Assembly: GCA_016191015.1 (NCBI GenBank)
Contig: JACPPM010000319.1
Coordinates: 1-44,548, forward strand
Source: Acidobacteriota bacterium
Lineage (GTDB): Bacteria > Acidobacteriota > CAIWXX01
DNA length: 44,548 bases
Direction: 5' to 3'
Part shown: one piece after another, positions 4,342-11,761 of the stretch
Numbering within the stretch: the stretch's first letter is position 1
Layout: every line of letters starts with the position of its first letter
Notes under the pieces: model-generated
Told to the model about the DNA's origin: nothing
The model's input: the letters and a program-made list of their open reading frames with translations, nothing else
The model's database searches: none
Program-made: the position numbers and the translations under genes

Positions 4342-5238
4342 ATGCTGAGACGCTTGGTTAGCTGTGCGGCGATGATCGCGCTGGTGGGTACTGTTGGTGC
4401 CGGCCCATTGCAGCCGGCGCCCGCAGAAGCGGAGATCTCATCGTATAAGACGATACAGCCCCGGTATGGCGAATCCCGATCCGCTCAGACGGTGCTGATC
4501 TACGTGACGGAAGACCTGAACCGGGATACACGGATAAAAGTGGAGGACTATGCGAAGACTCCGCCCAGCCAACGCATGCACGTCCTCAAGTTGAACCGAT
4601 CGCTTCACTTCAGCACGGGAATCTATGACTACTCCGTCATGACCTCAGTCTTCAGTGCCCTGCAGCCCGGACACTGCATGGGCATCCTGTGTCCCGCAAA
4701 GATCTCCATCACCGCCTCCGAGTGGTGCGGCAACTTCTACGAGCAGATCTTGCCGGATAGCAACGGCGCCAGGCGCACTATGCATTCCTACTTCGAGGCG
4801 GAAGGGGACAAGGAGGACTACGTGGCTCTTCCGGGTCCAGGTCTCTATGAAGATAGCCTCCCTGTGCTCATCCGCGAATTCGAAGGGGAATTCATTCCGG
4901 TTGGCCAGAAACGGGAATACAACATCCTTCCCTCGCTCTGGGAGAGCAGGATCACACACCGGCCTCTAGCCTCTGAAAAGGGTTCGGTTGAGAAGACCGT
5001 CGATCGTCTGACGGTGGCCGGCGGAAAATCCCAATCGGTTTACAAGTGGATCTGGCATGTCGGAAGCCGTGTAGTCACCTACTGGACCGAGCAGGAGTAC
5101 CCACACTACATTGTGCGCTGGAGCTCCTCCGCTGGTGAGTCGGGCGAACGGATCAAGACCATTCATCTCCCTTACTGGGAGCACAACAAGAACGAGGACA
5201 GCCGTCTCCGGCGGGAGTTGGGCCTTGCCACCCCATAG
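4342..5238 (+). CDS. Secreted protein of unknown function (family sometimes misnamed 'septum formation inhibitor Maf')
   Basis: This is a 298-residue exported protein with an N-terminal signal peptide ([20 protein letters not shown]). Recognisable blocks are [51 protein letters not shown] and a C-terminal [17 protein letters not shown] remember the same block order in Bacteroidetes proteins carried in databases as septum formation inhibitor Maf, although they have no similarity to the real Maf nucleotide pyrophosphatase. No function can be given. Start 4342 has GGGAGG seven bases upstream. The following DUF255 gene starts about 60 bases after the stop and may be co-transcribed. Confidence 0.75.
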
Positions 5239-5296
5239 CTCCCGTCCACGAGTGGTCCCTTCAGGATTGTCCTCCAGAGCTTGCATGGTTTCCGCG

Positions 5297-7705
5297 ATGT
5301 CTCGAAGAGACCGAGCGGCCAAGGTGAAGTCCCGTGCCTGCCTGTCGGCGCTGGTTCTCGTCCTCGCCGCCTGCGCGGACACGGAGGGGACAGGTCCGGG
5401 AGCGGGGGCCGAGGCGAATCCAGGTCCCAGTGGAGGAGACACGAGCTCGTTGTCCGTCACCCTTCCGCTTCCCGGGACCCCTTTGTTCGGGCCTGAGCTC
5501 CTGAAATCACTCGATCTCGCCCGCAAGACGAAGGGTCCCGCTTACAAGCCCCACACGCGCCACCTGCGACCCGACGGCTGGGCGAAGTACACTAACCGCC
5601 TCTTCCTGGAGTCGAGCCCGTACCTTCTGCAACACGCGCACAACCCGGTCAACTGGTACTCATGGGGCGACGAGGTGTTCGCCGAGGCCAAGCGGCGCGG
5701 GGTGCCGATTCTCTTGAGCGTTGGCTATTCGACCTGTCACTGGTGCCACGTCATGGAGGAGGAGTCTTTCGAGGACGAGGAGATCGCACGGATCATGAAC
5801 GAGAGCTACGTGGCGATCAAGGTGGATCGTGAGGAGCGCCCCGACGTGGACGCGATATACATGAGCGCGGTTCAGGCGATGACGGCACAAGGAGGTTGGC
5901 CGATGACGGTCTGGCTGACTCCTGACCGCAAGCCTTTCTTCGGCGGCACCTACTTCCCGGCACGCGACGGTGACCGGGGGGGTGGGACTGGCTTTCTGAC
6001 GCTGCTCCGGAAGCTGAAGGAAGCCTACGACGCGCAGCCCGACCGCGTGGCCGCGTCGGCGACCGAGATCACTCGACACGTCCAGGGGCAGCTCGCGACC
6101 CAGGTGGGCGGTACCCACCTTCCCGGCGTCGAGATCGTGCGCGCAGCCGCGGCGCAGTACAGAAGCCGCTTCGACGCCACCAACGGCGGGGTCGCCGGTG
6201 CTCCCAAGTTTCCCTCGAGCCTCGCCTTCCCTTTCCTGCTCCGCTACCACCGCAGGACGCGTGACCCCGAGTCGCTCCACATGGCCGTCCTCACGCTCGA
6301 GAAAATGGCCGCGGGCGGCATGTATGACCAGATCGGAGGCGGGTTCCACCGCTACTCGACAGACGTGCGGTGGCTGGTGCCGCACTTCGAAAAGATGCTC
6401 TACGACAACGCGCTCCTCACGCTCGCCTACCTCGATGCGTATCAGACCACCGGTGATGCGGGCCTCGCCCGCGTAGCACGCGAGATCCTGCGCTACGTCG
6501 AGCGAGACATGACCTCGCGCGACGGCGCCTTCTATTCGTCGACCGACGCCGACAGCCTGACACCGGAGGGCCACAGGGAGGAGGGCTATTTCTTCACCTG
6601 GACGCCGGCCGAGATCGAAGCCGCGCTCGGCCAGGAGCGTGCGAGGATGCTAGAAGCGTATTACGGTGTGACGCCGGGAGGCAACTTCGAGGGGCGCAGC
6701 ATACTCCACGTTGCGAGACCCCTGGCCGAGGTAGCCCGTGAGCTGAAGATCAAGCCAGAGGAGCTCTCGAGCACGCTCGAGCAGGCGAGGGAGATTCTCT
6801 ACAGGGAACGCGCTAGGCGGCCCGCACCCCTGCGCGACGAGAAAGTCCTTGTTGCCTGGAACGGCCTCATGATCTCGGGGTATGCCCGGGCGGCGATGGT
6901 GTTCGGCGAGGAGAGGTATGCTGGGATCGCCGGACGGGCGGCAGACTTTCTCCTCCGGAACCTCCTGCAGGATGGCCGGCTCAGGCGGAGCTTCAAGGAC
7001 GGCCGCGCGTGGCACAATGCCTACCTCGACGACTACGCGTTCTTCATCGCGTCGCTCCTGGATCTGTTCGAGGCGACCGGAGAAGCGCGGTGGCTGGAAG
7101 AGGCGATCGCCCTCGATCACGTCCTGGAGGCGCACTATGAGGACAAGACGGGCGGAGGTTTCTTCATGACGAGCGACGACCATGAGGTTCTCCTCGCCCG
7201 TGAGAAGCCGAGCTACGACGGGGCGGAGCCATCCGGCAACTCTGTCGCCGTCCTGAATCTTCTTCGGCTCCACGAGCTCACTACCTTGGACAGCTACCGC
7301 CAACGCGCCGAGCGAACGTTCAAGGCGTTCAGCCCTCTTCTTGCCAGGGCACCCCAGGCGCTCTCCGAAATGCTCCTCGCGGTCGACTTCCACCTCGATA
7401 CCCCGAAGGAGATCGTGATCGTCGTCCCGGAGAAAAGGAGTGACGCCGAGCCCCTGCTCGCGCAGTTACGTGCCTCCTTCGTCCCGAACCGCGTGTTGGT
7501 CGTGGCGGTGGAGGGCAAGGAGCTCCAACGGCTGTCCGAGCTTGTTCCACTACTCGAAGCCAAGGTCGCGCAGCGCGGGAAGGCGACGGCCTACGTCTGC
7601 GAACGCCGCGTCTGTGAGCTCCCGACCAGCGACCCCGCTGTCTTCGCCAAGCAGATCCGGAAGGTAAGGTCCCTGGATGAATCCGGAACGAATCCGGACA
7701 GATAG
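5297..7705 (+). CDS. DUF255 thioredoxin-domain lipoprotein (YyaL/SPATA20 family)
   Basis: This protein of about 802 residues is predicted to be a lipoprotein (lipobox LAAC, Cys26). An N-terminal DUF255 thioredoxin-like domain at about 95-260 contains the canonical [15 protein letters not shown] and the redox motif [10 protein letters not shown] (Cys147 and Cys150). It is followed by an (alpha/alpha)6-barrel resembling N-acylglucosamine 2-epimerase, with [15 protein letters not shown] and [14 protein letters not shown]. The family is conserved in bacteria and animals, but its reaction is not established. A lipobox is unusual, since many members are cytoplasmic; here the protein should sit in the periplasm on a membrane. 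Starts at 5285 and 5297 are both possible; neither has a strong Shine-Dalgarno. Upstream in-frame codons overlap the previous gene and are not used. Confidence 0.92.
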
Positions 7706-10954: not shown

Positions 10955-11761
10955 TCATCGGCTTCCTTTCGCGCCGTAGGCTCGTTTGTCACCCAGTAGG
11001 ACTCGGGTGTCCGGGTGGGCTCGTCGCCATTCTCCCAGCGTAACGACACCGGGCTCCTGGATAAAGGATATCGTCTCGCCCTTACGCGGTCCCGAGACTG
11101 CCGTCCAGCCGGACCCATCGAGTGGATACCAGAGGCTCTCGGTTCTTCGGTCAAAGATCAGGAAGACGTTTCTGTACACGTAACCGCTGACTCCGAACTG
11201 GTCGAGCTGGCCAGCTTTTTCTCGTCCGTAAACTACGGACAGATTTGAGAGCGGTCACCAGCCGACGCCGATCGGCTTGTTCCCGATCCGGTCATTAACC
11301 AATTCGTGGAGATCGAGCAGGGCGACGGGATATGCCCGTGCTTCACCTCCATCCACGTACCCGATGACAGGGATACCGCCGGTGGTCTTCGGCCGCTCGT
11401 TGGATCGATAGCGGCTGGGCGGAATGAGAAGGAGACGAGGGTCATCCGGGGAGACGAAGAGGGGGTCGTCGATCGCGCGAATTCGATCCTTTCCGATCCC
11501 ATACTGCAGCTCGAAAACCGGAATAGACGATCCGGTGAAATCGTACCACTGGGCTCCGGGACCAGTCGGATCTCCGCCGGCCCAGAGGAACGTCTTGCCA
11601 TCCTCAACACGTATCTTGGCGCTGCCCTTCCCCAGCAGGCCACGGTACTCATTGTTCTGTGTCTGCGACCCACTGCTCGAATCGGCGGCCATCGTCTGCC
11701 CGCAGACCATTGCCCATCCGACAGCGAGAGCGAAACGAACCGACGCGCACATGAATGTCAT
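10955..11761 (-). CDS. DUF3179 protein with in-frame TGA: candidate selenoprotein
   Basis: Read through one TGA at 11255-11257, this is a 268-residue exported protein. ATG 11761 has GGAGG seven bases upstream, followed by a signal peptide ending near MAADSS. The N-terminal half carries DUF3179 blocks DDPLFVSPDDPRLLLIP, IPVIGYVDGGEARAYPVALL and LHELVNDRIGNKPIGVGW. The next codon is TGA (residue 169). The same frame then continues with PLSNLSVVYGR, QFGVSGYVYRNVFLIFDR, TESLWYPL and VVTLGEWRRAHPDTRVLL, all DUF3179 C-terminal blocks. In ordinary members the residue after this point is the first Cys of a CPLC motif, so TGA stands exactly for a Cys, with the second Cys replaced by Ser. A hairpin 14 bases downstream fits a bacterial SECIS. 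Family function is unknown. The alternative is a nonsense-mutated pseudogene, but no other damage is visible in 268 codons. Confidence 0.82.
11224..11240 (-). promoter_or_regulatory. Candidate bacterial SECIS hairpin
   Basis: Immediately downstream of the in-frame UGA, the minus-strand RNA contains GUCCGUA-GUU-UACGGAC. This is a perfect 7-bp stem, extendable by a U-G pair, with a three-base loop starting in G. The stem begins 14 bases and the loop 21 bases after the UGA. This fits the known bSECIS rules: a small loop with an early G, 16-37 bases from the UGA. The hairpin codes for SVVYGR in the reading frame, so it is compatible with readthrough. SelB binding is inference. Confidence 0.7.

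Follow-up and report, generated by a model that had tools for sequence, protein, structure and literature searches.

A predicted selenoprotein of the DUF3179 family with a covarying SECIS hairpin in an Acidobacteriota genome

The gene, its in-frame UGA and the hairpin downstream

The window, that is, the whole stretch of 44,548 nucleotides analyzed here, carries on its minus strand a frame of 268 codons plus a TGA stop, which starts with an ATG at 11761, ends with the stop at 10957-10955 and has a single internal TGA, at codon 169, as its sole interruption. Both the coordinates and the frame agree with those of the initial annotation, which gave no strand, when the gene is translated with TGA as U. 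The features of the locus are the following:

10955..11761, minus strand: predicted selenoprotein gene coding for an exported DUF3179 domain protein (translation with TGA as U; PF11376, E=5.9e-32; UGA in the same column of homologues at 54-70% identity)
11684..11761, minus strand: probable signal peptide, residues 1-26 (from inspection of the sequence)
11291..11308, minus strand: HELVND block, residues 152-157 (alignment A4; N156 and D157 invariant, H152 and E153 almost invariant)
11255..11257, minus strand: in-frame UGA, codon 169, predicted Sec in GVGW-U-PLS (aligned to the Cys of CPLC/CTLC homologues)
11223..11241, minus strand: putative bacterial SECIS hairpin, with the 5' arm at 11241-11235, the loop (AGUUU) at 11234-11230 and the 3' arm at 11229-11223 (covariation in 18 sequences; absent in Cys homologues)

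The product of read-through matches PF11376 (DUF3179) over residues 92-264, on both flanks of the TGA as previously described, and with 111.7 bits against a Pfam gathering cut-off of 27 it belongs to this family; no NCBIfam model matches it. The GVGW-TGA-PLS context is likewise present in the translation, and the second Cys position of the motif is occupied by Ser.

Downstream of the UGA, the RNA can form the hairpin GUCCGUA-GUU-UACGGAC, in which the perfect 7-bp stem, the GUU loop and a loop starting 21 nt past the UGA are all found as the initial annotation had them (the innermost loop is GUU if the A-U pair forms). The model for bacterial SECIS elements (bSECIS; rules restated in PMC13188914) calls for a G in the first two positions of the loop, a spacing of 16-37 nt, a loop of 3-9 nt, a stem of 4-16 bp and an energy of at most -7.5 kcal/mol. 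The window hairpin does not differ from this model in any respect: the loop has 3-5 nt, with a G within the first two positions followed by a U, the stem 7-8 bp, the spacing is 20-21 nt and the fold energy about -11 kcal/mol. Moreover, among the 30 longest read-through frames with one TGA in the window, it is the DUF3179 gene that has the longest contiguous stem within these rules. A search of the window with Rfam returned nothing at the gathering thresholds. The chance of an equally good 7-bp pairing at this position, estimated by synonymous recoding of this single gene, is 4.5%; the hairpin alone is therefore weak evidence, and it is the comparative evidence that makes the case strong.

The terminal UGA of the gene, at 10957, is followed by no hairpin of the SECIS type (4 bp in the best stem). 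That the terminator lacks a comparable hairpin argues against a general change of the code, in which UGA would be read as another amino acid (TGA=Trp), or against selenium-free read-through. The frame is indeed open under such a code, but most of the non-Sec homologues have Cys, not Trp, at the column, and the genome encodes SelA, SelB and a Sec-type SelD (see below), so that we regard this explanation as extremely unlikely.

Conservation and covariation among relatives

Named genomes were scanned with a single protein, and the identities of 54-70% refer to the best segment. The eight close loci come from seven Planctomycetota (six of them labelled Phycisphaerae) and one genome labelled Gemmatimonadales. 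Each of the eight keeps the frame, with a single UGA in the same alignment column, within GWUPLA or GWUPLS, and followed by the same hairpin, and the further frameshifts that would have marked a pseudogene are not seen. In the phylum of the window genome, 396 genomes were sampled and 121 of them have a homologue at E<=1e-10, in many cases with a single TGA in frame; wherever the locus was read, this TGA falls on the Cys column, and UGA occupies this column in most UPLx homologues. In homologues, then, the column of the in-frame UGA holds Cys or Sec, as expected of a selenoprotein gene and as the initial annotation had anticipated, a few members having S, N or G instead.

The covariation set consists of 18 UPLx-type genes, aligned without gaps downstream of the UGA. 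All seven pairs of the helix form in 18/18 sequences (126/126 cells with standard pairs), and double-sided changes are found at six of the seven pairs. Cells with double changes number 21, against 6.3 in shuffles, and none of 500 shuffled controls reaches any of the helix measures; in slid controls, 27-48% of cells are paired, as compared to 100% at the helix. RNAalifold recovers the identical helix unaided, and the G and U of the loop (columns 25 and 26) are invariant in the UPLx alignment. As the 18 sequences are related, these counts are not independent events; nonetheless, the double changes occur in several separate branches. Sixteen non-Sec homologues form at most five of the seven pairs at the position of the hairpin. 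Among 31 UPx Sec genes, all seven pairs form in 28, six in two and five in one.

Members of the U[ST]LC type have their hairpin 5 nt nearer to the UGA. DUF3179 thus has two SECIS registers, with the loop at +20 in UPLx genes and at +15 in U[ST]LC genes (L050-L055 vs L027-L047), which suggests separate gains of Sec.

Coding constraint was estimated from the window gene and its eight relatives, with pN at 0.19-0.32 and pS at 0.57-0.81. No consistent difference is found between the codons before and after the UGA, dN/dS being well below 1 on both sides, and such equal constraint is not expected of a pseudogene. It is very unlikely, accordingly, that the UGA arose by chance as a nonsense mutation in a DUF3179 gene of the Cys type: the same UGA and hairpin recur in eight relatives at 54-70% identity, and the window gene shows no other damage, even if the gene is absent from the single genome of the same family and the searches of the assembly yielded no tRNA-Sec.

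Inspection by eye of the surroundings of the gene in the relatives showed no conserved operon. A Thioredox_DsbH (DUF255) protein is encoded a few kb from the gene (window 5111-7705, plus strand; Pfam), and a protein similar to it by eye is encoded in one relative (L132:1-1509, minus strand), which may be chance. In another relative (L125:5170-6684), a DUF547-like domain, also recognized by eye, lies upstream and in frame with the Sec-DUF3179 domain, a possible fusion, and in L027 and L133 a PDZ-like C-terminal stretch (by eye) extends beyond that domain.

Selenocysteine machinery of the genome

The window genome, 6.43 Mb in 349 contigs, encodes SelA (502 bits) and a Sec-type SelD (325 bits), both above the curated cut-offs, as well as SelB (344 bits; cut-off 242, reached by only 2/14 control genomes). 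The selD gene has an in-frame UGA of its own, in the known UxxK motif. The sel genes proposed as a check on the locus are thus present as regards selA, selB and selD, but the fragmented assembly yielded no selC. A tRNA-Sec was sought in the 349 contigs with RF01852, with two patterns and with a model built from the tRNA-Sec of 15 relatives, the best 150 candidates of the family and purpose-built model searches being scored, and was not found. The top match to RF01852 (47.7 bits) was rejected, because ARAGORN identifies it as tRNA-Ser(UGA), and a promising pattern match, C36:5439-5481, was rejected as not being a tRNA; loose patterns gave hundreds of chance matches. ARAGORN found no tRNA near selA, selB or selD. 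The same RF01852 search gave a clear tRNA-Sec in 15 of 16 relatives (61-78 bits), and in the sole genome of the same family the tRNA-Sec scores 76 bits and has the anticodon TCA. Because the assembly is in 349 contigs, the absence of a tRNA-Sec is likely to be an assembly gap. Another fragmented assembly, G025, has four DUF3179 genes with an in-frame TGA and no clear tRNA-Sec.

Together, the UGA at the Cys column, the covarying SECIS element, the constraint on both sides and the presence of selA, selB and selD provide comparative sequence support for a working selenoprotein gene, to which we assign a probability of about 95%; this figure covers the gene and not the chemical role of its product. 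SelB with selenocysteyl-tRNA would bind the hairpin that lies 20-21 nt past UGA-169, selenocysteine would be inserted at this codon, and translation would stop at the ordinary UGA, at 10957, where such a hairpin is lacking. The product would be exported via its putative signal peptide and would fold into a beta-rich DUF3179 domain, with Sec in place of the first Cys of a CxxC-like motif. The insertion of Sec, the export of the protein and its redox or metal role are what we infer from the sequences.

Place in the DUF3179 family and possible role of the selenocysteine

Sec forms of DUF3179 had already been recognized, as the initial annotation noted; they are catalogued as UxxC/T in two reviews (PMC9312934, PMC13188914), the second of which cites their prediction in 2007 in an Olavius symbiont by Zhang and Gladyshev. 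The window protein shares with the listed selenoprotein the Pfam domain, one Sec and the position of Sec as the first residue of the motif. Unlike the listed form, however, it is UxxS (UPLS), while most of its clade is UxxA (UPLA, the others UPLS), and it has a single copy of the domain, an N-terminal extension and a mature protein free of Cys. The wider Sec set has the motifs UPLA/V/T/K/C and UPA[A/I], and thus the listed UxxC/T is too narrow. The second motif Cys is kept in 20 of 22 non-Sec proteins, whereas Ala, Ser, Val, Thr, Lys or Ile takes its place in 28 of 31 UPx Sec proteins. Non-Sec homologues have at the Sec site the CPLC previously ascribed to ordinary members, but also CTLC, CSIC, CPLT, SPLC, SPLS, NPLC or GPLC. 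The first Cys is thus not universal in DUF3179, as L002, L032, L034 and L145 have S, G or N in the column of Sec or Cys (SPLC, GPLC, NPLC, SPLS).

The window genome also has DUF3179 proteins of the Cys type (C244, CTLC) and of the Ser type (C214, SPLC), with the same domain and an HE..ND-like block; in contrast to the window protein they are longer and have neither UGA nor hairpin. C244 covers the whole Pfam model (2-292). The window protein aligns only to positions 2-159 of the 292 and hence represents a short, one-copy form of DUF3179. In a protein tree of 59 rows, the window protein falls in an all-Sec clade of 12 rows (SH-aLRT 98), mostly planctomycete and nested within a larger, mostly-Sec group; the same tree requires five changes for the Sec, hairpin register and non-Sec states. 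The rows nearest to the window protein are Planctomycetota, and a transfer of the gene between phyla is possible.

The only two Cys residues of the window protein are inside the signal peptide, and none follows residue 26; likewise, in seven of the eight close relatives there is no Cys in the 110 residues before Sec nor anywhere after it. Lipobox-like N-terminal ends are found in the relatives L127, L131 and L027. Apart from the Sec site, HELVND is the most conserved motif. The AlphaFold model is confident and mostly beta (mean pLDDT 87.9; between residues 41 and 260, every ten-residue block averages at least 91); a fold search of the PDB with this model gave no match at E<=0.001, and a sequence search of the PDB gave none either. 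Sec would replace a redox or a metal Cys. As the mature protein is free of Cys, the selenol probably works alone, either as a redox centre that an external thiol would regenerate or as a metal ligand beside the HE..ND block. A role of Sec as a ligand, structural or metal-binding, and not in redox catalysis, is compatible with the selenoprotein, and we give it somewhat less than an even chance: no Cys is available in the mature protein, nor in those seven relatives, to resolve a selenylsulfide, the conserved His-Glu..Asn-Asp block lies upstream of Sec, and the predicted fold is unmatched to thioredoxin or any PDB entry, but most uncharacterised selenoproteins are considered redox proteins (PMC13188914) and a CxxC or UxxC pair is kept in many DUF3179 members.

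The window protein, as a predicted selenoprotein, adds to the known Sec forms of DUF3179 a UxxS/A branch in which the mature protein lacks Cys. Possibly, and we suggest this only tentatively, the branch comprises exported, Cys-free proteins with a lone selenol, whose chemistry differs from that of a thioredoxin-like UxxC and whose fold is without a solved relative, the family having acquired Sec on more than one occasion, with two hairpin registers. Standard annotation would end the gene prematurely, at codon 169. The covarying hairpin, which strongly supports decoding of the UGA, also shows that Sec-containing DUF3179 is widespread and stably kept rather than an oddity. With one predicted Sec and no Cys, the mature protein would offer a clean system in which to study the function of DUF3179 and the reason why selenium is retained.
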